64,000 nt of DNA from an uncultured Acidobacteriia bacterium (GTDB lineage: Bacteria > Acidobacteriota > Terriglobia > Bryobacterales > Bryobacteraceae). This document shows positions 10,646 through 25,750 of this stretch, piece after piece (the stretch's first letter is position 1; every line of letters starts with the position of its first letter). A program made the translations under genes and the position numbers. The notes beneath the pieces are model-generated. The model was not told where the DNA came from and did no database searches. It was given only the letters and a program-made list of their open reading frames with translations. The DNA lies in assembly GCA_903875575.1 (NCBI GenBank), contig CAIQWJ010000049.1, forward strand, positions 1 through 64,000, read 5' to 3'.

Positions 10646-11101
10646 ATGAAGAAAACCCTCTTGGCCTTAGTGGCTATTCTCTGTTTGACATTCGCGGCAT
10701 CCGCAGCCGACTTCAGCGGTAAGTGGGTCCGAGACCCTGCAGCGGCTCCGGCTGGTGGACCTCCCGGCGGTGGCGCTCCTGGTGGCGGTGCTCCGGGCGG
10801 CGGTGGTGGTGGTCGTGGCATGGGCGGCGGTGGCGGCACCTATGAATTCAAGGTGGCCGGTGCCAAGCTCACTGGTTCGATCACGAATCCCGGTCGTGGC
10901 GGTGGCGATCCGACGGTACAGGAAATCACGGACGGAAAAGTCAGCGGCGACACGTTCTCGTTCAGCGTGATGCAGCCCGGCCGCGGCGGCGGCGATCCGA
11001 CCAAGGTTGACTACACGGGTAAGGTTGTTGGTGACAAGCTCGAAATCACCACTGATCGCGGCCGTGGACCTCAGACGACCACGCTCGTAAAAGCACCGTA
11101 G
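10646..11101 (+). CDS. Small secreted Gly-rich beta-strand protein
   Basis: A 151-residue protein with signal peptide KKTLLALVAILCLTFAASA. The mature chain starts DFSGKWV, has a Gly-rich segment (about residues 35-65), then a repeated pattern in which GRGGGDPT precedes short strands (KVSGDTFSFSV, GKVVGDKLEITT). The strand pattern closely resembles the proteins at 45450 and 45815, indicating one family of secreted beta-barrel-like proteins of unknown role (DFSGKW recalls acidobacterial lipocalin-like secreted proteins). It has no Shine-Dalgarno sequence; see the -10 box at 10633. A terminator follows at 11201. Confidence 0.85.
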   Translation: MKKTLLALVAILCLTFAASAADFSGKWVRDPAAAPAGGPPGGGAPGGGAPGGGGGGRGMGGGGGTYEFKVAGAKLTGSITNPGRGGGDPTVQEITDGKVSGDTFSFSVMQPGRGGGDPTKVDYTGKVVGDKLEITTDRGRGPQTTTLVKAP

Positions 11102-11635: not shown

Positions 11636-14600
11636 ATGTTGCGTTCCACCTGTCTGATTTTGCTGATTTTCACGGGAGTTGCATCCGCCGATACCCAAAC
11701 CGGCATTGTGCGTTCCGGTGGGCAGCCCATTCCTGGCGCCACGGTATCGGCCGAATGCGGTACCGAGAGCAAGATTACGACGACCACAGACGATGCCGGG
11801 CGTTATGAGATGGGTGGTCTGCCCTCCACGTCGTGCAAGTACACGGTGCTGATGTTCGGCTTTGAGGCGACGCAGAAGGACGCGGTGACGTCCACGACTC
11901 CGCTGATTTTTGATTTGAAGCAGCAGGCTCGCGCCACGCTTGGTGTGGCACCGAAGCCGGCTTCGGTGATCAGTGCGGCACCGGCACCGGTAGCGGTTCC
12001 CGCTCCGGCGCCCACGCCGGCAGCGCCCGCGCCAACGCCTGACGCTCCCCGGCCCAGCATGGCTGCGGCCCAGGCAGCTGCAAATGCACCGGCGGGCGGC
12101 CGCGGTGGACGGACCGGCGGCCGTGGGGCAACCGGCGGTACAGGTTCGGCAGCGGCGACGGCCGCAGGTGGACGCGGTGGCCGTGGCGGACAGACGCAGG
12201 CAGGCGGACGTGGCGCTGCAGCGGCCCCGCAGGCGGGCTTCACGAGTGTCAACCTGGTGCAGAACGGCGATGTGACAGTGTCGGATGCACCGGCGGCCAG
12301 CATGGCGAGTGCGGCAGAGGGTGGTGTGGCGGCAAGCGACGCCTTTACGGTGAGCGGCACGATTAGCCAAGGCGTGATGGCTCAGGCCGGCGACGGTCTG
12401 GGTATGGGTGGCGCGGGCGGTTTTGGCTTTGGCCAGAATGGGCTGGGTGGCGATCCCTTTGGCGGGGCAGGTGGTGATCCGACGGCGGCTGGCGGCGCGG
12501 GTGGCCGCGGCGGCGGGGCAGGTGGACGCGGCGGCGGTGCGCCGGGTGGCGGACGCGGCGGTGGCGGTGCCGGATTTGCCGGAGGTGGAGCGGGTGGGCG
12601 CGGCGGTGGCGGTGCTGGCGGCGGACGCGGCGGTGCCGGTGGCCGTGGCGGCGGTCGTGGCCCCAATGGTACGACGGCGTTTGGTAACCGTGCCGGTCGT
12701 GGCCGCGGTCCGCAGTGGCAGGCCAGTCTGAATTACACCTTCCAGAATTCCGCGTTGAATGCCCGGCCTTACTCGCTGGCCTCGGCTACGACGAGCGGTT
12801 TGGCTCCGTCAAAGCCGGCAACGGCGAATAACCAGGGTGGTTTCACTCTGGGCGGTCCCATCATGATTCCGAAGACAAAGATTAATCTGAAGAACTCACG
12901 CTGGAATCTGAATGTGACAGGGACGCGCAATCGAACCGGCATTACCAACGTTTCGAGCGTGCCCACAGGAGTCGCAGGCCCGAATGGTTCGGGTTTGCGC
13001 TTTGGAGATTTCTCCAGCCTTGCGGCAACGAACATCATTTACGATCCGCGTACGGGCAATACGGTTCCGTTTGCCAATAACATCATTCCCCAGAGCCTGA
13101 TCAGCAGCCAGGCCGTCGGGTTGCTGAATTACTACCCGACTGCCACTGGCGTCGGCCTTGTCAAGAATTACGAATTCGATGCCAGCAACCCAAGCAACAG
13201 CAATAACGTTTCGGCCACGGTTTCGGATCCGATCACGCCGAAGGATCGCATCAATGTCAATATTTCGGCACAAAGCAGGAATTCGGCCAGCATTCAAACC
13301 TTCGGGTTTAAGGACCCCACCAGCGGCGGCGGTAAGGCGCTGAGTATTTCCTACTCACGAACAATCCGGCCAACGCTGGTCAATAATTTCAGCGTGTCGG
13401 TGAATCGGAACAACACGAACAACTCTTCTTATTTTTCGACTCTTGGAATCAACGTCGCCGCGCAGGACGGGATTAACGGCGTGCTGGCGACGCCGGCGAC
13501 TTACGGACCGCCCTCGCTGAGCTTCCAGAATTTTGCCGGCCTTTCAGATGGCTATCCTTCCACGAACCATTCGGCGACGTTCTCGCTGACCGACTCCATT
13601 ACAAAATCGAAGGGCAAGCACAACATGTCGTTTGGCCTGACCGGCTCGAAGCGGGAATCGAATTCGCTCGTGGCGAACAACGCCCGCGGTTCCTTCAGCT
13701 TTACTGGTGTGAGTACGCAGCAGATCGTCAACGGCAGCCCGGTCCCGAAAGGAACAGGCTATGACATGGCCGACTTCCTGCTTGGCTTGCCGGCATCCAC
13801 TTCCATTGTTCATTATCTGAACGGAAACGACATGTTCTACTACCGGCAGAACACCGCCGCCGCCTACGCCAACGACGATTACCGTCTCAATACCCGAGTG
13901 ACCATCAACGCAGGCCTGCGCTGGGAATTCTACGCGCCGCAGACCGAAAAATACGGTCACATGGCCAATCTCGAATTCTCGCCGGACGGAACCGGAGTCA
14001 ACGTGGTAACGCCTGGCCAGACTTATAAGTACGGGGGCGGTACGGTACCGAACGGGCTTATCAGTCCGCAATATGGCATGTTTGAGCCGCAGTTTGGCTT
14101 TGCCGCAAAGCCCTGGACCAAACGCGCTATCGTATTCCGCGGCGGCTACGGCATTCGCTATGACGGCGGAGCGCTGGCACAGCAGGGGAACAAAATGACG
14201 ATTCAGCCGCCCTTCGTGCAGTCGGTGAGTCTCACTCCGGCCCAGGCCCTCAACTATACGGGGAACGTGCTGACCCTGCAGAATGGCTTTCCCACACTGC
14301 CGCTCTCGACGATTACCAACAGCTACGGCGTGAGTCCTAATTACAAAGCGGCCATGGCGCAACAATGGAACGCCATCATCCAGTACACGCTGGGCAGATC
14401 CTATGTGATTCAGGCTTCTTATTTCGGAACTAAAGGTACTAACCTGGATGTGCTGCTGGGACCGAACCGCGCTACCCCCGGTCCCGCCGCCACGCTCACC
14501 AGTCGCGTGCCGGTTCCCAACGCGCTCACCACTATCCAGTTCGATAAGCCAATCGGCGATTCCATCAACCACACAGGCCAGGCGCAGGTTACGCGACGTC

Positions 14601-15238
14601 TGGCGAAGGGGTTTGGCGCTGGTGTCACGTATACGCTTCAGAAAACGATTTCGGACTCTTCTATCCTGGGTACCGGCGTAGTCCAGATCGAAAACAACAT
14701 TCTCGCGGAGCGGGCCGTTACCACGGCTCCCCATCAGGATCTGGCCGTGACGTTTAACTACCAGTCGCTCGCCACCAACCAGAAGAGCCAGTTCTACTGG
14801 AACCTGATTCGCGGCTGGCAACTGCAAGGCAGCTATGACGTGAATTCCGGAAACCCCTCTACCGCGACCCTGGCGACCGATCCTTCCGGGACCGGTATTA
14901 TCGGCGCGGCGCGCGCCAACGCCACGGGATTATCCGTCACCGATGGCACCGGGTATTTCAATACCGCTGCCTTCGCGCTGGTACCTGCGGGAACTTACGG
15001 GACAGCCGGTCGCAACACGATTCCCGGCATCGTGAATTTCACGATCCGTGCTTCGGCGATGCGGTCGTTCCGTCTGGGCGAACGGCATCGGCTGGCGCTG
15101 ACCTTAAACACCACCAACCCGCTGAATCACGTTTCCATTACCGGCTTCGGGACGCAGTTTGGTTCCAATACCTTCGGAATCGCAACCAGAGCGGGTGCGA
15201 TGCGCAACGTTTCCGCGCAGGCGAGGTTTACATTCTGA
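11636..15238 (+). CDS. TonB-type outer-membrane barrel protein with CarboxypepD_reg domain and Gly/Arg-rich tract, copy 1
   Basis: A 1,200-residue outer-membrane protein of the acidobacterial Oar-like group. Signal peptide MLRSTCLILLIFTGVASA; then a carboxypeptidase-regulatory-like beta domain (GQPIPGATVSAECGT, ending near residue 100); an Ala/Pro-rich linker; a Gly/Arg-rich tract (about residues 150-345); then a barrel beginning with RGPQWQASLNYTFQNSALNARPYS and GGPIMIPKTKINLKN. The C-terminus NVSAQARFTF ends in Phe, the usual outer-membrane assembly signal. No recognisable plug domain lies between the regulatory domain and the barrel; the Gly/Arg tract occupies its place. GAGGATAG precedes ATG 11636. 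The stop overlaps the next frame (TGATG). A paralogue lies at 17830. Substrate unknown. Confidence 0.88.
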   Translation: MLRSTCLILLIFTGVASADTQTGIVRSGGQPIPGATVSAECGTESKITTTTDDAGRYEMGGLPSTSCKYTVLMFGFEATQKDAVTSTTPLIFDLKQQARATLGVAPKPASVISAAPAPVAVPAPAPTPAAPAPTPDAPRPSMAAAQAAANAPAGGRGGRTGGRGATGGTGSAAATAAGGRGGRGGQTQAGGRGAAAAPQAGFTSVNLVQNGDVTVSDAPAASMASAAEGGVAASDAFTVSGTISQGVMAQAGDGLGMGGAGGFGFGQNGLGGDPFGGAGGDPTAAGGAGGRGGGAGGRGGGAPGGGRGGGGAGFAGGGAGGRGGGGAGGGRGGAGGRGGGRGPNGTTAFGNRAGRGRGPQWQASLNYTFQNSALNARPYSLASATTSGLAPSKPATANNQGGFTLGGPIMIPKTKINLKNSRWNLNVTGTRNRTGITNVSSVPTGVAGPNGSGLRFGDFSSLAATNIIYDPRTGNTVPFANNIIPQSLISSQAVGLLNYYPTATGVGLVKNYEFDASNPSNSNNVSATVSDPITPKDRINVNISAQSRNSASIQTFGFKDPTSGGGKALSISYSRTIRPTLVNNFSVSVNRNNTNNSSYFSTLGINVAAQDGINGVLATPATYGPPSLSFQNFAGLSDGYPSTNHSATFSLTDSITKSKGKHNMSFGLTGSKRESNSLVANNARGSFSFTGVSTQQIVNGSPVPKGTGYDMADFLLGLPASTSIVHYLNGNDMFYYRQNTAAAYANDDYRLNTRVTINAGLRWEFYAPQTEKYGHMANLEFSPDGTGVNVVTPGQTYKYGGGTVPNGLISPQYGMFEPQFGFAAKPWTKRAIVFRGGYGIRYDGGALAQQGNKMTIQPPFVQSVSLTPAQALNYTGNVLTLQNGFPTLPLSTITNSYGVSPNYKAAMAQQWNAIIQYTLGRSYVIQASYFGTKGTNLDVLLGPNRATPGPAATLTSRVPVPNALTTIQFDKPIGDSINHTGQAQVTRRLAKGFGAGVTYTLQKTISDSSILGTGVVQIENNILAERAVTTAPHQDLAVTFNYQSLATNQKSQFYWNLIRGWQLQGSYDVNSGNPSTATLATDPSGTGIIGAARANATGLSVTDGTGYFNTAAFALVPAGTYGTAGRNTIPGIVNFTIRASAMRSFRLGERHRLALTLNTTNPLNHVSITGFGTQFGSNTFGIATRAGAMRNVSAQARFTF

Positions 15239-15285
15239 TGTTTCACCAGTTGACGTTCGACACAGTAAAAGGGCAGATCACCACC

Positions 15286-17520
15286 ATGAAGCGGACACTC
15301 ATCTTCGGCCTCACATTCATCCTGGCGCTCGGCAACCTTCCGGCGCAGGAACCGCTTACCATCCGGGTCAACACCACGCTCGTCATTATCGACGTGGCGG
15401 TGAAGGACAAATCCGGAAAGGTCGTTGAAGATCTCAAGAAGAATGACTTCACGCTGACCGAAGACGGCAAGGCGCAGCAGATCGCGGTCTTCGACTTCCA
15501 GAAACTGGATATGGAAACCGCTCCGCCCGTACCGGCCGTGAAAGCGGTCAATGCAACTCCCGCCACGCCTGCCGCACCGGCGAAACCCGCCTCTATCAGT
15601 GGGTCCATCGCTCAATCGTCCCAGCCGGCGGGTGCCGCCGCGGCCAAAACCACCGCTGCCGTGGCCGTCAAGCCTGGTACCGCGCAGCCCATCATCCGCT
15701 ATCAGGATCGCCGTCTGGTCGCCATGCTTTTCGACATGAGCACCATGGCCGTGGCGGAACAGATCCGCGTGCAGAAGACGGCCATCGACTTTATTCACAA
15801 AGATCTGAAGCCTGCCGATCTGGTCTGCGTGATGATCGCCACCAGCGGTCCGCTGGAAATCTCGCAGGACTTTACGGACGACAAAGACGCGCTGGAAGCG
15901 GCGGTCAAGAAGTTCCATATCGGCGAAGGTTCAGACCTGGCGGACAGCCTGGGTTCGGGCGACGCGACCGACGACAATACGTTCAGCGCGGACCAGTCGG
16001 AATTCGACATCTTCAACGTGGATAAGAAACTGACCACGATTGAAACGGCAGCCAAGCTCCTCGCCGGGTTCCCTGAAAAAAAGGCGCTGATGTATTTCTC
16101 CGGCGGCATCACGCAGTCGGGCAGTGACAATCAGGCCGAACTGATGAAGCTGATCAATACGGCGAAGAAGTCGAACGTTGCGATCTATCCGATCGACGCG
16201 CGCGGTATGACGGCTTCCGCCCCGGGTGGCGATGCTTCCACAAAGTCGGGCAGTGGTTCCAGTTTGTTCACCGGGAGTGCTACCGGCGGGCGTGGCGGTG
16301 GGCGCGGTGGCGCGGCGAACGACACCGCGCAGGAAACGCTTGCGACCATGGCGGCGGATACCGGCGGCAAACTGTTCGCCGAAGACAATGACCTCACGGT
16401 CGGTCTGGAACAGGCCCGCGACGACATTGGCAGCTACTACATCCTCGGCTACTACAGTACGAATAACAAGCAGGATGGCAAATACCGGACCGTCAGCGTG
16501 AAACTCGGCAGGGCGGATGTCGCTTCGGCCAAGCTCGATTACAAACACGGGTACTTCGCGGACAAGGAGTTCGGCAAGTTCACCTCGCAGGACAAGGAAG
16601 ACCAGTTACAGCAGGCGCTCATTCTGGGAGATCCCATTACGGATTTGACGCTCGCGGCGGAAGTGAACTACTTCCGACTGGCGCGCGACCGCTATTTTGT
16701 GCCCTTCAGCGTAAAGATTCCGGGTTCGGAAATCGCGCTCGCCAAGACGAAGGGTAACGCGAAGACGGATCTGGATTTCGTCGGACAATTGCTTGATAGT
16801 AAAGACAAGATGGCCGGGGTGGTTCGCGACGGAATCACGATTCCGCTGGCGCAATCCACGGTGGCCGAACTCAATAACAGGACGATCGCTTACGATACGG
16901 GCTTCACTGTGGCACCGGGGACCTATAAACTCAAATTCCTGACACGTGAAAATGAAACCGGCAAGATGGGAACCTACGAAACCAAAATCGTGATCCCGGA
17001 TCTGGCCGCCGATCAGCCGGCAAGAGTCAAGACCAGCACCATCGTGCTGAGCAGTCAGCGTCAGCCGCTGAAGGCTGCGCTGGCGAAGGCGGACCCCAAC
17101 AGTAAAGTGGCGGAGTCCAACCCGCTGGTGGAGCAAGGCCAGCAACTGGTTCCGAGCATCACCCGTGTATTCCGCAAGGACCAGAACCTGTTTGTCTATA
17201 TGGAAGTCTATGATCCGGTGCTGGATGCGGAGCAGAAGCCGAGCGTGGCGGCCACCCTCGCGTTCTACCGCGGCAAGACCAAGCTGTTTGAATCCGAACC
17301 GGTACATCTGGACGCATTCATCCCACAGCGTGGTCAAACGCTGCCGGTGAAGTTCCAGGTGCCGCTTTCGAAGCTGCCGACTGGCGTTTACACCTGCCAG
17401 ATCAGCCTGATGGATGAAAACGGCCAGAAGTTTGGCTTCCAGCGTGCTGAAATCAAGGTGCTCCCGGCGCAGAACGCAGCGGGTGCGGCACCAGCGGCAG
17501 CAAAACCGGCAGGCTTCTGA
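15286..17520 (+). CDS. Secreted VWFA-related protein (TIGR03436 type), copy 1
   Basis: A 744-residue exported protein. Signal peptide MKRTLIFGLTFILALGNLPAQ. A beta domain follows with the family signature VNTTLVIIDVAVKDKSGKVV and DFTLTEDGK; an Ala/Pro linker; then a von Willebrand A-like domain in which the metal site reads LFDMSTM (Asp150), so the second Ser of DxSxS is replaced by Met; a Gly/Arg tract near 330; and the family end YYILGYY-N-DGKYR. The last 300 residues form further beta domains (FRKDQNLFVYMEVYDP). ATG 15286 fits the signal peptide; an upstream ATG 15238 overlaps the receptor stop codon. It is directly downstream of the barrel gene and probably co-transcribed; a terminator follows. 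Protein binding at the cell surface is inferred. Confidence 0.9.
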   Translation: MKRTLIFGLTFILALGNLPAQEPLTIRVNTTLVIIDVAVKDKSGKVVEDLKKNDFTLTEDGKAQQIAVFDFQKLDMETAPPVPAVKAVNATPATPAAPAKPASISGSIAQSSQPAGAAAAKTTAAVAVKPGTAQPIIRYQDRRLVAMLFDMSTMAVAEQIRVQKTAIDFIHKDLKPADLVCVMIATSGPLEISQDFTDDKDALEAAVKKFHIGEGSDLADSLGSGDATDDNTFSADQSEFDIFNVDKKLTTIETAAKLLAGFPEKKALMYFSGGITQSGSDNQAELMKLINTAKKSNVAIYPIDARGMTASAPGGDASTKSGSGSSLFTGSATGGRGGGRGGAANDTAQETLATMAADTGGKLFAEDNDLTVGLEQARDDIGSYYILGYYSTNNKQDGKYRTVSVKLGRADVASAKLDYKHGYFADKEFGKFTSQDKEDQLQQALILGDPITDLTLAAEVNYFRLARDRYFVPFSVKIPGSEIALAKTKGNAKTDLDFVGQLLDSKDKMAGVVRDGITIPLAQSTVAELNNRTIAYDTGFTVAPGTYKLKFLTRENETGKMGTYETKIVIPDLAADQPARVKTSTIVLSSQRQPLKAALAKADPNSKVAESNPLVEQGQQLVPSITRVFRKDQNLFVYMEVYDPVLDAEQKPSVAATLAFYRGKTKLFESEPVHLDAFIPQRGQTLPVKFQVPLSKLPTGVYTCQISLMDENGQKFGFQRAEIKVLPAQNAAGAAPAAAKPAGF

Positions 17521-17577
17521 AGGCTGTAGCCCGAGGCCATAGCCCGGAACCGGGCGACGGATGTCATCTAACAAAGG

Positions 17578-17609
17578 CGAGGTCAGCAGGTCCCTGCCGA
17601 CCTCGTTTT
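17578..17609 (+). terminator. Rho-independent terminator after module copy 1
   Basis: CGAGGTC (17578-17584) pairs with GACCTCG (17599-17605), with GCAG/CTGC extending the stem inside, followed by TTTT. The rest of the 17521-17829 gap holds the promoter of module copy 2 and no gene. Confidence 0.75.
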
Positions 17610-17767
17610 GCGTGGCGGTGTCCTGCCCGCAGAGGTGAAGTTTCCGTCTTTTGGGGCGAACGCCCCTGAAAACGCTGTTTTTGCGATCAATCCGGCCCGT
17701 CCGTGGCTCCCCCATTGTAAACAAACGCAATGACTTAAGGGACTTTTGTAAAAGGTTGCAACGGATG

Positions 17768-17796
17768 TGCAGAACCGGCCCGGATGCCAATATAAT
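17768..17796 (+). promoter_or_regulatory. Sigma-70-type promoter of module copy 2
   Basis: A perfect -10 box TATAAT (17791-17796) and a -35 TGCAGA (17768-17773), 17 bases apart, upstream of the receptor start at 17830. The same TGCAGA-N17-TATA arrangement stands before the gene at 36531. Confidence 0.75.
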
Positions 17797-17829
17797 CGTA
17801 ACGTGTTCCAATTGAAGGGAAAATTTTCT

Positions 17830-20800
17830 ATGTTGCGATCCACATGCGTCGCTTTGTTCGTTTTTGCGGGAATAGCCGCTGCCGATGTCCAGAGCGGCGT
17901 GGTCCGTTCCGGCGGGCAGCCGATTCCCGGCGCCACGGTAACAGCCCAGTGCGGCACCGATAAGATTCCGACGGTCACCGATGATGCGGGCCGCTTTGAA
18001 ATCGGTGGCTTGCCCTCAACCTCCTGCAAGTATACGGTTTTGATTTTCGGTTTTGAACCGCTTCAGAAAGATGCGGCGGCTTCATCTACTCCACTCACTC
18101 TCGATCTGACTCTTCAGGGACATGCCAGCGTGCCGGTTGCTCCCGGCGCGGCCCCCGCTCCGGTTAAGGCCCCCGCGGCTCCGGTCGTAACGGCGGTTCC
18201 AGCGACTCCGGCTCCCGGTGCTCCGGCGGCCCCGGCGGCTCCGATGCCGACTATGGCGGGACGTGGCGCGGTGATGGCCAATAATGGTCGCGGTGCCCAG
18301 CCAGCAGCTGGTGGTCGCGGCGCGGCTGCGGCAGGCGGTCGTGGCGGACAGGGTGGAGGTCGCGGCGGCTTCCAGAGCCTCAGCCTGACAACGAACGGCG
18401 ACGTCCTCGCCTCTGATGCTCCCGCCTCGGTAGTCGGCGGTGACACCGGCGGCGGTGCTGGCGCGGGTGATGCCTTTACCATTAACGGCACCGTAAGCTC
18501 CGGCGTTCAGGCACAGCCCGGCGACGGCTTTGGTGGTGGTCCCGGCGGCTTTGGTTTTGGCGCAGGTGGCCCGGGTGGCATCGGTGGTGATTTTGGCGGT
18601 CAGGGTGGTCCTGGCGGACGCGGTGGCGATAACGGCGGCGGTGGTGGTCGCGGCGGCGGTCAGGGCGGTCCCGGCGGTGGTGGTGGCGGCTTTGGTGCCC
18701 CCGGCGGTGGCGGCGGTGGTCGCGGCGGTGGCGGCGGCTTCGGCGGCCCCGGCGGTGGTGGACGTGGCGGTCCTGGCGGTCCTGGTGGCGGTCGTGGTCC
18801 CAACGGCGTGACGGCGTTTGGCAATCGTGCCGGTCGCGGACGTGGCCCGCAATGGCAGGCCAGCGTCAACTATAACTTCGCCAATTCCGTACTGAATGCG
18901 CGCCCCTACTCGCTCCAGTCGGCATCGACGAACGGTGTGGTTCAGGCCAAGGCTCAAACGGCCAATAACAATTTCGGCCTAACGCTGGGCGGTCCCATCA
19001 TGATTCCGAAAACGAAGATCAATCTGAAGAATTCGCGCTGGAACCTGAACTACACGGGGTCGCGCAATACGGTCGGTGTGAATCCGCTCTCGAGCGTGCC
19101 CACGGCAGCCTTTAAGTCCGGAGACTTCTCCAGCCTGCTCGGAACAACCACAATTTACCAGCCGGGCGGCCTGATTCCGTTCCAGAACAATATCATTACT
19201 CCCAGTCTGATCAGCCCGGCGGCAACGGCGTTGCTCAAGTTCTATCCGGATCCCACGGGCACCGGTCTGAAGAACAACTACCAGCTGATCGGCAGCAATC
19301 CGAGTAACAGCAACAATATCAATTTCACCCTGAGCGATCCGCTCACGACGAAAGATCGTATTAACCTCAACCTCTCTTACCAGAGCCGCAGTTCGACCAG
19401 CGAGCAGGCCTTCGGTTACCTGGATCCTACCAACGGAAATGGTGGCAACCTTTCGCTCACCTATTCGAAGACGATTCGCCCCACCCTGGTGAACTCTCTC
19501 TCCGTTGGCATTAACCGCAACGTGACGAACGCCCTCTCGTTCTTCTCCAATGGAGTAAATGTGGCTGGCCAACTTGGTATCAACGGCGTGCTGGCGACGC
19601 CTGCGACCTACGGGCCGCCGTCGCTGAGTCTGACAAACTTCTCCGGCCTCAATGACGGCACACCGTCCCAAAGCCATGCGACGACCCTGAATTTCAGCGA
19701 TTCCGTTGTGAAATCTCTGGGCAAACATAACCTGACGTTTGGCGTCACAGGCAGTTCCCGCGCCACCAACTCGCTTACGGCCAGTAACGCCCGCGGCAGT
19801 TTTGGTTTCACCGGCATCAATACGGAACAGGTGGTCAATGGCGTTCCCACCAGTTCGCTGGCGAATCCCACCGGATACGATCTGGCCGACCTCCTGCTGG
19901 GGGTGCCAAACTCGGCTTCGGTGACACAGTACCTCAACGGGAATAATACTTTTTACTATCGGCAAAAGACGGGTGCCGCGTACGCGAGCGATGACTACCG
20001 CCTTACTACGGCACTGACTCTGAGTCTCGGACTGCGTTGGGAGTTCTTCGGTCCTCAAACCGAAAAGTACAACCACATGGCAAACCTGGAATTCGCGCCC
20101 GGTGGTGGCAACGTCAGTGTTGTTACTCCCGGCATGCTGGACGCACTCGGCAACGGCAGCGTACCGAACGGCCTCATCAGGCCCGACTTCAAAATGGTGG
20201 AGCCCCGTTTGGGCTTTGCCTGGAAGCCCTGGTCCAAGCGCGCGATCGTTTTCCGCGGCGGCTACGGTATTGCATACAACGGCGGCTCAATCGCGCAGAT
20301 CGGAAGCAAGCTGACGATTCAGCCTCCCTTCGTGCAGACTCTCAGTCTGAATACAACGACGACTCCCGGGCTGACCATCCTCAATGGACTGGTGGCACCG
20401 GCGGGAACGTCGGTCACGAACTCGTACGGCGTAGATCCGAATTACATCCCGGCCAGAGCGCAATCCTGGAACGCGAGCACGCAGTACACCTTTAAGACGT
20501 CTTACGTCTTCCAGTTGAGTTACTACGGCGCTAAGGGCGACAACCTCGATGTCCTCCAGGGGCCGAACCGGCGAGCCCTCGGCGGCACGGTGCTCCCCTA
20601 TCCCAAGGCGCTCTCCACGGTTCAGTTCAATCAATCCATCGGCAATTCGATCGGTCACAGCGGTACGGCTCAGCTGAACCGCCGCTTCGCTCGCGGCCTC
20701 TCCGGTCTTGCAACCTACACCCTCTCGAAGACTCTCTCTGATTCTTCGATCCTGGGTAGCGGTGTGGTGCAGATTCAGAATAATCTGCTGGCCGAACGCG

Positions 20801-21330
20801 CTATCACGAGCGATCCGCACCAGACCTTCAGTCTGAACTTCAACTATCAGACCCTGGTCGGCAATCAGAAGAGCGCGGTTTATCTCACGATTCTGCGCGG
20901 TTGGCAGGTAAACGGGGGTTACAGCGTGACATCGGGAACTCCCTTCACCGCCACCGTTTCCGGCGATCCCTCGGGTACCGGCATTATCGGCTCGGCCCGT
21001 GCGAATGCCACCGGCCTTCCGGTAACGAATGGTGTCGGTTACTTCAATCCGGCTGCGTTCACGACAGTGCCTGGCGGCACTTACGGTACTGCGGGACGCA
21101 ATACCATCCCCGGTATCGTGAACTTCAGCCTGAATGTCTCCGCCGCCCGCAGTTTCAGGATCGGCGAAAAGCACAGAATTCAGTTGACCTTCAACACGCA
21201 GAATCCTTTGAATCACCCGACGATTACCGGTATCAATACGGTGATCGATTCGAAAACTCTTACTCCGGGCACACCGACTCAGGCAGGCAGCATGCGCACG
21301 GTCAACGCCCAGGCGAGGTTCACATTCTGA
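17830..21330 (+). CDS. TonB-type outer-membrane barrel protein with CarboxypepD_reg domain and Gly/Arg-rich tract, copy 2
   Basis: A 1,166-residue paralogue of the 11636 protein. Signal peptide MLRSTCVALFVFAGIAAA; regulatory domain GQPIPGATVTAQCGT; Ala/Pro linker; a Gly-rich tract (about residues 150-330); then the same barrel start (RGPQWQASVNYNFANSVLNARPYS, GGPIMIPKTKINLKN) and the same C-terminus VNAQARFTF ending in Phe. As in copy 1, no plug domain is visible. Differences cluster in loops (for example the stretch from residue 985 to the C-terminal region), suggesting diverged ligand loops. GAAGGGAAA precedes ATG 17830; a strong promoter lies at 17768. The stop overlaps a following ATG (TGATG) and the VWFA partner begins 53 bases later. 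Confidence 0.88.
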   Translation: MLRSTCVALFVFAGIAAADVQSGVVRSGGQPIPGATVTAQCGTDKIPTVTDDAGRFEIGGLPSTSCKYTVLIFGFEPLQKDAAASSTPLTLDLTLQGHASVPVAPGAAPAPVKAPAAPVVTAVPATPAPGAPAAPAAPMPTMAGRGAVMANNGRGAQPAAGGRGAAAAGGRGGQGGGRGGFQSLSLTTNGDVLASDAPASVVGGDTGGGAGAGDAFTINGTVSSGVQAQPGDGFGGGPGGFGFGAGGPGGIGGDFGGQGGPGGRGGDNGGGGGRGGGQGGPGGGGGGFGAPGGGGGGRGGGGGFGGPGGGGRGGPGGPGGGRGPNGVTAFGNRAGRGRGPQWQASVNYNFANSVLNARPYSLQSASTNGVVQAKAQTANNNFGLTLGGPIMIPKTKINLKNSRWNLNYTGSRNTVGVNPLSSVPTAAFKSGDFSSLLGTTTIYQPGGLIPFQNNIITPSLISPAATALLKFYPDPTGTGLKNNYQLIGSNPSNSNNINFTLSDPLTTKDRINLNLSYQSRSSTSEQAFGYLDPTNGNGGNLSLTYSKTIRPTLVNSLSVGINRNVTNALSFFSNGVNVAGQLGINGVLATPATYGPPSLSLTNFSGLNDGTPSQSHATTLNFSDSVVKSLGKHNLTFGVTGSSRATNSLTASNARGSFGFTGINTEQVVNGVPTSSLANPTGYDLADLLLGVPNSASVTQYLNGNNTFYYRQKTGAAYASDDYRLTTALTLSLGLRWEFFGPQTEKYNHMANLEFAPGGGNVSVVTPGMLDALGNGSVPNGLIRPDFKMVEPRLGFAWKPWSKRAIVFRGGYGIAYNGGSIAQIGSKLTIQPPFVQTLSLNTTTTPGLTILNGLVAPAGTSVTNSYGVDPNYIPARAQSWNASTQYTFKTSYVFQLSYYGAKGDNLDVLQGPNRRALGGTVLPYPKALSTVQFNQSIGNSIGHSGTAQLNRRFARGLSGLATYTLSKTLSDSSILGSGVVQIQNNLLAERAITSDPHQTFSLNFNYQTLVGNQKSAVYLTILRGWQVNGGYSVTSGTPFTATVSGDPSGTGIIGSARANATGLPVTNGVGYFNPAAFTTVPGGTYGTAGRNTIPGIVNFSLNVSAARSFRIGEKHRIQLTFNTQNPLNHPTITGINTVIDSKTLTPGTPTQAGSMRTVNAQARFTF

Positions 21331-21383
21331 TGTCGAAGAATCTTAACAACGCCATGCTCCAGACAGATAATCAGGGGAACAGA

Positions 21384-23627
21384 ATGATGAAGAAAACAGT
21401 AGCAACCGGGCTCGCCTTCTTCCTGGCCATCGGGAACCTCCCGGCACAGCAGCAGCCGGTTACATTTACGGCCAACACGACTCTCGTTGTCATCGACGTC
21501 GCCGTGAAGGACAAGTCGGGCAAGGTCATCGAAGACCTCAAGAAGGGCGATTTTGTCGTGCAGGAAGACGGCAAGAATCAGCAGATCGCGGTCTTCGACT
21601 TCCAGAAGCTCGATATCGATACCGCCCCGGCGGTGCCGGCAGTCAAGGCGGATGCGAAACCGGCGACTCCGGCAAAACCAGCGGCAGGTCAGCCTGCCAG
21701 TGTCGGTGCCTCCATCGTACAAACGGCGCAACCCGCTCCGACCGCTCCAGCCAAAGCCCCTGCCCCGGCTGAAGTAGCTACCAAGCCCGGTACTGCGAAG
21801 CCGATTATCCGCTTTCAGGATCGCCGCCTCGTCGCTATGTTGTTCGACATGAGCACCATGGCGGTTGCCGAACAGATTCGCGTGCAGAAGACGGCGGTGG
21901 ATTTCATCCGCAAGTCGCTCAAGCCCGCCGATCTGGTTACCGTCATGATGGCGACTACCGGTCCACTGGAAGTGGTGCAGGATTTCACCGACGATAAGGA
22001 CGCGCTCGAAGCTGCCGTCAAGAAGTTCCGCATCGGTGAAGGCAGCGACCTTGCCGGCAGCGCCGGCGCGGGCGACACGTCGGACGACAATACGTTCAGC
22101 GCCGACCAGTCCGAATTCGACATCTTCAACGTCGATAAGAAACTGACCACCATCGAAACGTCGTGCAAGATGCTGGCAAGTTTCCCGGAAAAGAAAGCTC
22201 TGATGTATTTTTCGAGCGGTATTTCGCAGTCCGGTCAGGACAATCAGGCGGAATTGCTGAAGGCTGTGAACGTCTGCAAGAAGTCGAACGTGTCCATCGA
22301 TCCGATCGATGCCCGCGGCATGACTGCTTCGGCTCCGGGTGGCGATGCGACAGCAGCTTCCGGTCGCGGTACAAGCTTGTTCAGCGCTGGCGGCGGTTCG
22401 GGCGGCGGTGGTGGCGGTCGTGGCGGTGCGGCGAACGATACGGCTCAGCAGACCCTCTCTACGCTTGCCGCTGACACGGGTGGAAAGCTTTTCGCCGAAA
22501 GCAATGATCTCGCGGTTGGCCTGGAACAGGCGCGCGACGACATCGGCAGCTATTACATTGTTGGCTACTACAGCACCAACAGCAAATCGGACGGCAAGTA
22601 TCGCACTGTGGCAGTGAAACTGACCCGTGCCGATGCGGCCTCCGCCAAGATGGATTACCGGCACGGCTACTTCGCAGAAAAGGAATTCGGCAAGTTTACC
22701 GCAGCCGATAAGGACGATCAGTTGCAGCAGGCACTCATCCTGGGTGACCCGATTACGGATCTCTCCATCGCTGCCGAAGTGAATTACTTCCGGCTCGCAC
22801 GCGATCGCTATTTTGTGCCCCTCAACGTGAAGATTCCGGGTTCGGAAATCGCACTTGCCAAGACCAAGGGCAATGCCAAGACAGACCTCGACTTTATTGG
22901 CCAGTTGCGAAACAGCAAAGACCAGATGGTGGGCCAGGTGGCCGATACGATTACGATCCAGCTGGCGGCTTCCTCGCTGACGGAGCTGAACAACCGAACG
23001 ATCGCCTATGACACGGGCTTCGCGGTGCCGCCCGGTTCGTATAAGCTGAAGTTCCTCACCCGCGAGAACGAAACCGGCAAGATGGGAACCTACGAACGCA
23101 GCTTCGTCATTCCTGATCTGTCGGTGGATCAACCGAGCACCATCAAGACCAGCACCATCGTGCTCAGCAGCCAGCGTCAGTCCACTAAGGGCGCGCTCGC
23201 CAAGGCCGATCCCAACAGCAAACTGACTGACGCAAATCCGCTGGTGGAAGACGGACAGCAGTTGGTCCCGAGCATCACCCGCGTCTTCCGCAAGGACCAG
23301 AATCTGTACGTCTACATGGAAGTGTACGACCCGACTCTGGGCACCGATCAGAAGCCCAGCGTGGCCGCCATCCTGACCTTCTTCCGCGGGAAGAACAAGA
23401 TGTCCGAATCGCAGCCGGTGCATCTGGATACGTTCATTCCGCAGCGCGGCCAGACGTTGCCGGTACAGTTCCAGGTACCGCTGTCAACCCTGCCGACCGG
23501 TATCTACACCTGCCAGATCAATCTGATCGACGAAAACGGACACAAGTTCGGCTTCCAGAGAGCGGATATTAAGGTCCTGCCCGCCGCGAACGCGGCTGCA
23601 GCAGCCCCCAAACCGGCTGGCTTCTAG
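21384..23627 (+). CDS. Secreted VWFA-related protein (TIGR03436 type), copy 2
   Basis: A 747-residue paralogue of the 15286 protein with the same layout: signal peptide (MMKKTVATGLAFFLAIGNLPAQ), the VNTT-like strand (ANTTLVVIDVAVKDKSGKVI) and DFVVQEDGK, an Ala/Pro linker, a VWA-like domain with LFDMSTM (Asp155, degenerate metal site), a Gly/Arg tract, YYIVGYYSTNSKSDGKYR, and a beta-rich C-terminal 300 residues nearly identical in motif order to copy 1. Start ATG 21384 (or 21387) follows AGGGGAA; the frame stays open far upstream inside the receptor gene, but no signal peptide is found there. It completes the second copy of the receptor-VWFA pair and ends before a long hairpin. Confidence 0.9.
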   Translation: MMKKTVATGLAFFLAIGNLPAQQQPVTFTANTTLVVIDVAVKDKSGKVIEDLKKGDFVVQEDGKNQQIAVFDFQKLDIDTAPAVPAVKADAKPATPAKPAAGQPASVGASIVQTAQPAPTAPAKAPAPAEVATKPGTAKPIIRFQDRRLVAMLFDMSTMAVAEQIRVQKTAVDFIRKSLKPADLVTVMMATTGPLEVVQDFTDDKDALEAAVKKFRIGEGSDLAGSAGAGDTSDDNTFSADQSEFDIFNVDKKLTTIETSCKMLASFPEKKALMYFSSGISQSGQDNQAELLKAVNVCKKSNVSIDPIDARGMTASAPGGDATAASGRGTSLFSAGGGSGGGGGGRGGAANDTAQQTLSTLAADTGGKLFAESNDLAVGLEQARDDIGSYYIVGYYSTNSKSDGKYRTVAVKLTRADAASAKMDYRHGYFAEKEFGKFTAADKDDQLQQALILGDPITDLSIAAEVNYFRLARDRYFVPLNVKIPGSEIALAKTKGNAKTDLDFIGQLRNSKDQMVGQVADTITIQLAASSLTELNNRTIAYDTGFAVPPGSYKLKFLTRENETGKMGTYERSFVIPDLSVDQPSTIKTSTIVLSSQRQSTKGALAKADPNSKLTDANPLVEDGQQLVPSITRVFRKDQNLYVYMEVYDPTLGTDQKPSVAAILTFFRGKNKMSESQPVHLDTFIPQRGQTLPVQFQVPLSTLPTGIYTCQINLIDENGHKFGFQRADIKVLPAANAAAAAPKPAGF

Positions 23628-23647: not shown

Positions 23648-23698
23648 AAACGCAGCAATGGCCGCCAATCCCTGTGATTGGCGGCCATTGCTGCGTTT
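23648..23698 (+). terminator. Perfect 23-base-pair hairpin, probable terminator
   Basis: Bases 23648-23670 pair perfectly with 23676-23698 around the 5-base loop CCTGT. The stem starts AAACGCAGCAATGG. Only three T follow, so it is not a classic U-tract terminator, but it lies just after the end of module copy 2 and could terminate transcription or protect the 3' end. Confidence 0.65.
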
Positions 23699-23827: not shown

Positions 23828-25750
23828 GTGGAACAGTCCAACAAGATTCGGGCGGTTTTCGGTGCCGGCTTCGCCATTCTTCTCGGGGTCGGGATTGCCG
23901 CTGTCATCCAGACTTTCGTCTGGCAGGATGGCGGTGCGCTGGTGGCGCGAGCATATGAAGCCCTGAACCGCCTGGACTCGATTGCATACTCGTCGAAGGC
24001 CGCCGAGGAGGCCGGTCTTCGGTTTGCTTCGGCGTCAGATACCGCGGCTGCGGCCGAATGCCGAAAAGATCTGAGCGATATTCGGGAACTGGTCGCCGGT
24101 TTTGGTTCCGCGAGCCGGGACTCGTCTCAGGGTCCATTGCTGGCGGGCATCAAGCGGCGCTTGTCCGAATTGCTGGACGCTGAATATGTTGCTCTCCGTT
24201 CGGTGCTTGATGCCCCGGCACCGGAAAGAATGGCCCAGGTTCTTGCGGACCGTAACACGACCGGTGCCAGAGTTCAGTTGCACCAGACGCTTCTCGACAT
24301 GCGCACCGAGTTGCGGCGAATTCTGGATGAACGCCTGGCGAGTCAGGAAGAAACCGCGGTACGTGCGCGGCGTCTCTTTATGAGCTCCGGCCTCGTCTGC
24401 TGTCTATTGATCGTAATGGCGGGCTGGCGATTCTCGCTCGATCTCGGTCGCCGTGAGTTCTTCGGCAGGGTGCACGCGCGTCAGGGTGAGATTTACCGGC
24501 AGGCCGTGGAACTGGCAACTGACATGGTCTTCCGGCTGGATGCTGAAGGCCGCTTCGTATACTGCAATCCGGCGGCGCTTCAACTGCTTCATTACAGCGA
24601 ACAGGAAGCCATCGGGCGCTCCTACACCAAGCTCATCCGGATGGACATGCGGCGCGAGGTAGAGCATTTCTACCTGCGTCAGGCGGCACGCAACCGCAAG
24701 GGCAGTTACTCCGAGTTCCCAATCATCGATGGTCACGGGCGGGAGCGCTGGATCGGCGTCAACGTTCAGGTGCTTTCGGAAGGCTCCAGAATTACGGGTT
24801 TCCAGGCCGTGGCGCGGGATGTTTCGGAGCGCAAGCGGGCGGAGGCGGATCTGGCGAAGCGATTCAGTTTCGTCGAAGGTATTGCCGCCACAACGCCTGG
24901 CCTCCTCTACGTTTTCGATCTGGTGGACCGCAAGACGGTTTACTCGAATCGCGAACTGGTTGTCTCTCTGGGCTATAAGCAGGAAGAAGCCGGCGATTTC
25001 GACCAGGTCGCCATGCGCCTGTTCCATCCTGACGATCTTTCCGCCCTGCGCCTTCATCATGAATCGCTCCGGCGGGCGCGTGAAGGCGACGTGCATCGCA
25101 TTGAATACCGTGCGCGCCATGCCGATGGCAACTGGCTCTGGTTCTCCGCCTGGGAATCCCCTCTCGCGCGCGACGCCGATGGCAGAGTCAGGCAGATTGT
25201 CGGCATCGCTCAGGACGTCACGGCACACAACGCCGCGCGCGAGCGCCTGACCTGGCAGGCCAACTATGACACTCTGACCCGCCTCGCGAATCGCCACCAT
25301 TTCTGGACGCGGCTTCAGAATCTTCTGCGTCGTGCCAGCCTCGATCACACCAGAGTGACGCTTTGCCTGTTTGACGTCGACCAGTTCAAGGAGGTCAACG
25401 ACCAGTTTGGTCATGCGGCGGGCGACGAAGTTCTGGAAGCGATCGGAACCATTGTCCGCAGCGAGCTCCGCTCCGACGATTCCAGCGGCCGGCTTGGCGG
25501 CGACGAGTTCTGCTTCGTACTGCCGGACGCCGACAGCGACGAAGCCGTCCGTCTGGCGGAACGCATGCGCGAAAGGCTCAACACGATGGCCTTTGGCATG
25601 AACGGCGGTGCGCCGTTTACCGCCTCAGCAACTTTTGGTGTTGCAGCATGGCAGCCGCATATGGGTGCCCGCGAACTGGTGGAAGCGGCTGATCGAGCGC
25701 TGTACCGGGCTAAAGCCTCCGGCCGAAATCGCGTCTGTGTGGACGTATAA
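23828..25750 (+). CDS. Membrane diguanylate cyclase with two PAS domains and GGDEF
   Basis: A 640-residue inner-membrane signalling protein that should make cyclic di-GMP. A first membrane helix (about residues 10-30) and a second (about 185-205) flank a helical periplasmic sensor region. Two PAS/PAC units follow (about 220-340, with FRLDAEGRFVYCNPAAL, and 340-480, with GNWLWFSAWESPL). The GGDEF domain spans about 485-640 with NYDTLTRLANR, the intact active site GGDEF at 557-561, and the inhibitory I-site RSDD at 548-551, so product feedback is likely. GTG 23828 is the only start that precedes the first membrane helix. No EAL domain. The sensed ligand is unknown. Confidence 0.94.
   Translation: MEQSNKIRAVFGAGFAILLGVGIAAVIQTFVWQDGGALVARAYEALNRLDSIAYSSKAAEEAGLRFASASDTAAAAECRKDLSDIRELVAGFGSASRDSSQGPLLAGIKRRLSELLDAEYVALRSVLDAPAPERMAQVLADRNTTGARVQLHQTLLDMRTELRRILDERLASQEETAVRARRLFMSSGLVCCLLIVMAGWRFSLDLGRREFFGRVHARQGEIYRQAVELATDMVFRLDAEGRFVYCNPAALQLLHYSEQEAIGRSYTKLIRMDMRREVEHFYLRQAARNRKGSYSEFPIIDGHGRERWIGVNVQVLSEGSRITGFQAVARDVSERKRAEADLAKRFSFVEGIAATTPGLLYVFDLVDRKTVYSNRELVVSLGYKQEEAGDFDQVAMRLFHPDDLSALRLHHESLRRAREGDVHRIEYRARHADGNWLWFSAWESPLARDADGRVRQIVGIAQDVTAHNAARERLTWQANYDTLTRLANRHHFWTRLQNLLRRASLDHTRVTLCLFDVDQFKEVNDQFGHAAGDEVLEAIGTIVRSELRSDDSSGRLGGDEFCFVLPDADSDEAVRLAERMRERLNTMAFGMNGGAPFTASATFGVAAWQPHMGARELVEAADRALYRAKASGRNRVCVDV

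Follow-up and report, generated by a model that had tools for sequence, protein, structure and literature searches.

Two tandem barrel-VWFA gene pairs

The 64,000-nucleotide stretch of an uncultured Acidobacteriia bacterium analysed here (contig CAIQWJ010000049.1, positions 1 to 64,000; hereafter the window) carries two tandem gene pairs on its forward strand, each consisting of a gene for an Oar-like outer-membrane barrel (A) followed by a gene for a VWFA-related protein (B). Pair 1 comprises A1 (11636..15238, 1200 aa) and B1 (15286..17520, 744 aa), and pair 2 comprises A2 (17830..21330, 1166 aa) and B2 (21384..23627, 747 aa). At both junctions the stop codon of the barrel gene overlaps an in-frame ATG of the B gene in the letters TGATG (15236..15240 and 21328..21332, read from the sequence), so that B1 may start at 15238 and B2 at 21330; the ATGs at 15286 and 21384 lie further in, ahead of a stretch that by eye resembles a signal peptide. 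A first-pass annotation of this DNA had described a gene pair repeated as a whole with TGATG at both barrel stops, and this description is correct in its open reading frames (ORFs), all four of which are open at the positions it gave, in its families and in its junctions.

Both barrels match the Pfam family PF25183 (OMP_b-brl_4), A1 at E 8.6e-139 over aa 369-1192 and A2 at E 1.7e-141, and both also match CarboxypepD_reg, which in A1 forms an N-terminal sandwich at aa 23-85 (11702..11890; PF13620, 38.8 bits). B1 and B2 reach 254.4 and 230.5 bits against the NCBIfam family TIGR03436, both above its curated cut-off of 81.25. The TIGR03436/VWA part of B1 spans aa 25-426 (15358..16563) by that profile and is accompanied by two Ig-like sandwiches. 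The two barrels are 63% identical and the two B proteins 79%.

A clade of barrels without a detectable plug

The more unusual point of this locus is the architecture of the barrel rather than the pairing, and it is absent from the first-pass annotation. In the ordinary Oar-like barrels of the source genome, the plug fills about 135 residues between CarboxypepD_reg and the barrel. The A proteins run from the sandwich through a linker into the barrel, and in the shortest of them the whole stretch ahead of the barrel is 173 residues long. A profile of the plug, trained on 14 ordinary barrels from the genome, scored at least 20 bits in 33 of 37 other barrels (the 14 training ones included) and 10-19 bits in the remaining four; all 42 A proteins, 39 of them with the N-terminus included, scored below 10 bits. 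Likewise, the Pfam Plug model at E <= 0.01 matched none of the 42 A proteins, A1 among them, as against five of eight ordinary barrels, one of these above Pfam's own cut-off. The comparison covers these 42 A proteins and 74 partner barrels (not all N-terminally complete), of which one, at locus L316, has a plug. This locus is the same place as L238 (Candidatus Sulfopaludibacter, G061:C69) and the one case seen of a B gene behind a plug-bearing barrel. A separate plug gene beside the pair was considered and rejected: flanks of up to 6 kb at 80 loci held four plug-bearing ORFs (>30 bits), of which one is the L316 barrel that precedes B and three lie at a distance from the pair.

The predicted structure is consistent with this architecture. 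In an AlphaFold model of A2 built from 42 sequences (mean predicted local distance difference test score, pLDDT, 72.7; predicted template modelling score 0.64), the sandwich is folded at aa 19-92, aa 100-338 have pLDDT below 50, and 22 long strands follow from aa 343 (counted manually, shorter strands omitted). The Foldseek matches listed for this model were all TonB-dependent transporters (best E 9.1e-21), and comparison with VIA gave a best Z of 20.9 with a root-mean-square deviation (rmsd) of 3.2 over 431 residues. PF25183 is found in 42 of 42 A proteins and PF00593 in 14 of 42. CarboxypepD_reg is present in 35 of 42 at E <= 0.01 and absent from the distant L216-L218, three plugless barrels in which another N-terminal region, matching no Pfam family at E <= 1, replaces it. 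In a FastTree phylogeny all 42 A barrels fall on one side of a branch with support 1.0, opposite 36 other barrels of the genome and four plug-bearing barrels from elsewhere; the plugless state thus marks one clade, the members from distant families (L216-L218) included. As far as sequence and predicted fold can show, A is a barrel of the TonB-dependent-transporter type without a detectable plug domain.

Near-strict pairing of A and B

Both families are large in the source genome, where profile searches of the contigs gave 46 matches to TIGR03436 and 54 to PF25183. For work at the level of ORFs, 39 and 41 rows respectively were kept; the others were weak TIGR03436 matches, additional fragments of ORFs already represented, and a single barrel ORF of its own. 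The latter (59213-61747 on the minus strand of the window, 844 aa) is a divergent OMP_b-brl_4-like ORF of 50.8 bits that was left out of the barrel counts, and the profile search of this genome found no TIGR03436 match near it. Read from coordinates, a barrel gene followed directly by a VWFA gene on the same strand occurs four times in the genome, twice in the window and once each on contigs C25 and C106, with TGATG at all four junctions. The pairing subfamily makes up 5 of the 39 kept TIGR03436 ORFs; four of the five directly follow a barrel, and by the same coordinates none of the others does. BLAST searches with queries from three of the four pairs separate these proteins clearly. Among the matches listed, paired barrels score 356-1019 bits against each other and at most 188 bits against any other barrel (A2 was not among the matches listed for C25), and paired VWFA proteins score at least 506 bits against each other and at most 132 bits against other VWFA proteins. 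Since paired barrels and paired VWFA proteins each stand apart in this way, chance adjacency within two large families is excluded. Pairing as a general habit of TIGR03436 proteins with Oar-like barrels was also rejected, as it concerns one subfamily of each only. In other TIGR03436 subfamilies, three such genes stand in a row on contigs C10, C30 and C65 (L010, L014, L012).

The pairing was followed through 150 family genomes, an even draw from a larger group, in which B was searched for with the profile labelled A1 at E <= 1e-70 and A with the profile labelled A3 at E <= 1e-110; the A profile was built from the four A proteins of the source genome, and its cut-off was our choice. B was found in 118 and A in 121 of these genomes, with B alone in none (co-occurrence table [[118,3],[0,29]]), and the copy numbers of A and B are correlated (Spearman 0.96) and equal in 124 of 150 genomes. 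Two of the three genomes with A only hold nothing beyond plug-bearing barrels near the cut-off (G005 and G042, rejected as borderline cases on account of that plug), and the third has its A at a contig edge.

Positions were compared for 150 listed of 230 B matches and 150 listed of 236 A matches, a pair being defined by the same strand and ends within 600-800 bases. B directly follows a barrel in 142 of 145 testable cases (102 by coordinates, 5 by loci already compared and 35 of 40 by reading of the DNA); the remaining listed B genes are three unpaired, four at contig ends and one left out of the tally. Conversely, A is followed by B in 141 of 142 testable cases (102 by coordinates, 38 of 40 by reading of the DNA and one from L097), with one unpaired A (G061:C61), three at contig ends and five left out. 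An adjacent VWFA gene is therefore the rule for this receptor subfamily, the opposite of what would have refuted the first-pass proposal. The first-pass annotation had called the pairing strict: within the one subfamily it is nearly so, and for neither family as a whole does it hold.

The association extends beyond the family. In a phylum-wide draw, B was present in 50 of 297 genomes from eleven families, that of the window included, and 28 of 29 new loci were paired (27 of 28 if the locus from the window's own family is set aside); at L108, the exception, the match covers no more than the last three fifths of B. A further set of genomes, which overlaps the others and is not independent of them, held 82 B genes, of which 74 were paired, five lay at contig ends and three were unpaired (L242, L307 and L314, the last two being the G037 and G141 cases already counted above). 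The first in-frame start of B lies a median of 3 nucleotides from the barrel stop and within 20 nucleotides in 35 of 42 junctions. Overlapping junctions occur in 9 of 42, and TGATG itself is not universal.

Origin of the tandem and co-inheritance

The tandem is shared with another Bryobacteraceae genome (L241), in which the order is GAPDH-A-B-A-B. There, the first A resembles A1 (73% identity) more than A2 (61%), and the second A resembles A2 (69%) more than A1 (62%). The first B is nearly tied (80% to B1, 79% to B2), and the second is closer to B2 (83%) than to B1 (76%). Other members of the genus (L222, L246, L252) have one pair after GAPDH within the stretch compared, and the genome to which L252 belongs (G142) has one A and one B in total at the cut-offs used. 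Relatives with a single GAPDH-linked pair, together with the tandem shared by L241, indicate that the two-gene unit was duplicated as a whole, as the first-pass annotation had proposed. A single pair after GAPDH was likely the ancestral state, with the tandem arising in one lineage. Among the four pairs of the source genome, the two in the window are closest to each other on both the A and the B side.

Between GAPDH and pair 1 the window holds a small glycine-rich ORF (10646-11101, 151 aa) with a start that by eye resembles a signal peptide; neither Pfam (at E 0.01) nor NCBIfam (at E 0.1) gave a match to it. Directly 3' of the tandem lies a gene for a PAS-PAS-GGDEF diguanylate cyclase (23828-25750), a relative of which also follows the single pair in L252 and the pair in L298. 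Terminator-like hairpins were found by a consensus scan 3' of pair 1 (17578..17605, forward strand, 12-pair stem) and of pair 2 (23651..23695, forward strand, 20-pair stem), so each pair may be a separate transcript, although the scan returned 16 terminator-like sites in the region where 13.5 were expected, about as many as by chance.

A and B appear to have travelled together. Their distance matrices over 41 pairs correlate at 0.887 (maximum of 5000 permutations 0.262), and in 23 of 41 pairs A and B agree on their nearest relative. Trees of 104 pairs, built after removal of five duplicates, share 47 of 101 splits, where label permutation gave at most 3, and 42 of 67 well-supported A splits also occur in the B tree. 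The match between the trees of the two members that the first-pass annotation had put forward as a check was thus largely found, and part of this agreement is shared species history. Taken together, these comparisons show B, at the level of sequence, as a near-obligate and co-inherited partner of A, predicted to consist of a VWA domain and two Ig-like sandwiches and as a rule without a lipobox.

The divergence between the copies lends no support to a widened ligand range. It had been proposed that they differ mainly in loops and linkers, as expected if the range of ligands were being widened. Between A1 and A2, however, identity is 0.61 in the barrel strands and 0.63 in the barrel loops, with 0.58 in the linker and 0.71 in the signal peptide and N-terminal domain; between B1 and B2 the folded domains reach 0.80-0.82, against 0.62-0.65 for signal peptide, linker and tail. 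The loops thus show no excess divergence, and on these regional identities the proposed pattern, and with it a widening of ligand range through the receptor loops, was rejected.

A possible two-component outer-membrane transporter

That A and B are a physical or functional unit is likely in view of their near-strict pairing, their coupled genes and their joint duplication, and the two proteins probably form a complex. A natural barrel without a plug would in turn need other means of closure. Each A-B pair could therefore be a translationally coupled unit encoding a two-component outer-membrane transporter, in which A would keep its coupling to TonB through a motif and a flexible linker, and B, presumably exported without a lipid anchor and a little better conserved than the barrel, would supply in trans the gating that the plug gives to ordinary transporters; the pull of TonB on the linker would then open the A-B assembly. 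A precedent of a kind exists in the laboratory: a passage of PMC10994204, citing earlier work, reports that a plugless FpvA barrel was partly restored by a soluble plug. This engineered case, where the plug can act as a separate chain, was counted in favour of gating in trans.

The linker of A bears on the first part of this model. A motif of the form acidic-x-hydrophobic-x-V/I/L-x-G/A lies within it in 32 of the 39 A proteins with the N-terminus included (500 shuffles: mean 5.4, maximum 13). In A1 it is at aa 235-241 (12338..12358), by a pattern chosen post hoc from the alignment, and in A2 at aa 214-220 (18469..18489), where G220 is nearly invariant (at least 90%) in 42 rows. The motif resembles TonB boxes. 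Its spacing is similar to that of residues E118 and I122 of Oar, as given in a section of PMC6434023. The evidence for a TonB box in the A linker is suggestive and falls short of proof, and A more likely than not still couples to TonB through the motif and the flexible linker.

The same linker could play another part. In A2 it stands where the other barrels of the genome have their plug (aa 100-342, 18127..18855), glycine makes up 40% of aa 100-345, about the most that an A linker of the window reaches, and pLDDT there is mostly 23-37. Perhaps it fills the lumen itself as a disordered plug, with B as an assembly factor or periplasmic scaffold, and fold alignments do place part of the linker on the plug side, at low confidence. 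The shortest A proteins, however, have by eye only some 70-80 residues between sandwich and barrel, and these are not glycine-rich, so a glycine-rich linker plug is not general. We regard self-plugging as unlikely, the least probable of the mechanisms weighed here, and gating of A by B as the better candidate.

B1, modelled from 44 sequences (mean pLDDT 76.5), is predicted to fold into a VWA domain at about aa 143-407 and two beta-sandwiches at about 457-570 and 587-726. VIA matched the model to VWA folds with Z reaching 17.0 (rmsd 2.9 over 172 residues); the VWA domain (model residues 46-386) took up its whole table, and the sandwiches were therefore compared by Foldseek alone, for which the top match of B was RbmA, a tandem-sandwich biofilm scaffold. 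Within the VWA domain of B1, a GGRGG-type loop at aa 310-341 (about 16213-16308) has pLDDT below 50 and resembles the A linker. The N-terminus of B looks, by eye, like a signal peptide. A lipobox pattern was found in one of 44 B proteins (L208) and not in those of the window, and an identity of B as a SusD-like lipoprotein was rejected on this count. The DxSxS metal motif, the metal-ion-dependent adhesion site signature of VWA domains, is present in 0 of 44 B proteins and, by eye, in 11 of 34 other TIGR03436 ORFs of the genome; its loss was dismissed as a hallmark of paired B, as other long TIGR03436 proteins also lack it.

These features could also suit a B protein held by A on the cell surface, where it would bind ligands or surfaces, either as a SusC-SusD-like lid or as a barrel-held VWA adhesin, with the unit importing what B catches. 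VWA domains and tandem Ig- or FnIII-like sandwiches are common in adhesins, and the similarity to RbmA points in the same direction. SusCD pairs are known two-gene transporter units according to a part of PMC11658791, and CglB of Myxococcus is named as a VWA surface adhesin in the title of a work in the reference list of PMC12204202. The scarcity of a lipobox is unlike SusD, though, and neither the absent metal motif nor the lack of excess divergence in barrel loops and VWA domain fits such a role well. A surface lid or adhesin would also leave the missing plug without explanation. It is thus unlikely, although gating in trans by B has difficulties of its own.

Several observations weigh against gating by B. 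The fifth B of the pairing subfamily in the source genome, on contig C108, has no barrel within 8 kb upstream, and the B closest to it (81.5%), L242 of a relative, likewise lacks one. The unpaired B genes of the family-wide tally are this same C108 gene, the second B of an A-B-B array in G037 (L126, L128) and one in G141, and one of the 142 paired B genes (L238 in G061) follows a plug-bearing barrel at about 135 nucleotides. An orphan B, an A-B-B array and a B behind a plug-bearing barrel show that the tie of B to a plugless neighbour is not absolute. Well-supported B splits contradict 11 of 67 well-supported A splits, and the best similarity of B to a plug is 4.0 bits (E 0.34). The motif pattern is short and was written after inspection of the alignment, in L226, one of the 32, it is matched only at another place in the linker, and its enrichment among the remaining barrels of the genome is modest, with 18 of 37 matching where shuffling gave a mean of 8.3 and a maximum of 15. 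Finally, 48 of 50 fold matches of A begin at residues 158-178, inside the low-confidence linker and on the plug side of known structures; a fold alignment at pLDDT 23-37 points neither way as to a position of the linker in the lumen. G061, on the other hand, also speaks for the unit, since its sole A and sole B lie on different contigs and both are retained, so the A-B link may not rest on operon structure alone.

The orphan B genes also touch on a further possibility, that A is a dedicated exporter with B as its cargo, much as Oar is required for the protease PopC to be secreted in Myxococcus, the plugless barrel serving as a wide exit. Oar is a near studied relative of A by architecture, PopC secretion requires Oar according to a part of PMC6434023, and there is usually one barrel per B, with coupled genes. 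From the same part of that paper, however, Oar seems to require its plug, as a plug-less variant did not secrete PopC, though that variant was also degraded and reached lower levels, and TonB-box mutants of Oar secreted much less PopC. An orphan B is moreover kept with no barrel beside it, and in 569 of 820 comparisons, which are not independent of each other, B is the better conserved of the two proteins, which would be unusual for a free cargo. An exporter is rated slightly less likely than a surface lid or adhesin. Gating of the plugless barrel in trans by B, with TonB opening the A-B assembly by pulling on the linker, appears to be the likeliest single mechanism, at a probability of about 0.4. 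The full account is that of a natural split transporter: a phylum-wide clade would have given up its internal plug, leaving the gating of the pore in trans to a separate VWA-Ig-Ig protein from the following cistron, with TonB pulling on the flexible linker. This account is tentative.

Comparison with known systems

Acidobacteriota are abundant in soil, and to our knowledge their outer membrane has been little studied. In the open-access literature, no paper was found on the TIGR03436/VWFA-related family, on acidobacterial Oar-like TonB-dependent barrels, or joining acidobacteria, TonB-dependent, VWA domain and outer membrane; the search returned one engineered case and one Ton-motor paper on plugless barrels. 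No description of a plugless clade with a near-obligate VWA partner was found either, a weak negative as it covers open-access work only. For Solibacter, a part of PMC3174227 gives TonB-receptor and VWA paralog groups separately and without pairing.

By architecture, A is close to Oar of Myxococcus xanthus, with which it has in common the CarboxypepD_reg extension, the 22-strand barrel fold of the TonB-dependent superfamily and a stretch resembling a TonB box (a section of PMC6434023). Unlike Oar, A has no detected plug (39 of 39 with the N-terminus included) and is followed by a near-obligate VWA partner. TonB-dependent transporters are defined as barrel plus plug in the same section of PMC6434023, and strict membership of A in this class fails on the plug. 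SusC-SusD of the Bacteroidota is similar as a two-gene outer-membrane unit of a TonB-type barrel and an exported partner. In that system the barrel SusC carries a plug and its partner SusD is a lipoprotein that forms a lid at the surface (compare PMC11658791 and, for the related RagAB, PMC11817032), whereas in the present pairs the barrel is plugless and the predicted VWA and Ig-like partner as a rule lacks a lipobox. B1 and B2 plainly belong to the acidobacterial VWFA family TIGR03436, within which, among the ORFs kept from the source genome, only the B subfamily goes with a barrel. The engineered FpvA likewise has a plugless barrel whose plug function is partly restored by a separate protein (a passage of PMC10994204), although it is a laboratory construct, while A appears to be plugless by nature and its partner B is no detectable homologue of a plug.

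The plug counts among the defining parts of a TonB-dependent transporter, and the way in which the force of TonB opens such a transporter is a long-standing question. A natural clade that retains barrel, N-terminal extension and TonB-box-like motif without the plug, and has a near-obligate partner, could reveal the purpose of the plug and whether another protein can take over its work, and it offers a testable role for one subfamily of the acidobacterial VWFA proteins. The parts belong to known families; their combination, a plugless clade with a near-obligate VWA partner, would be new within the TonB-dependent transporter kind.

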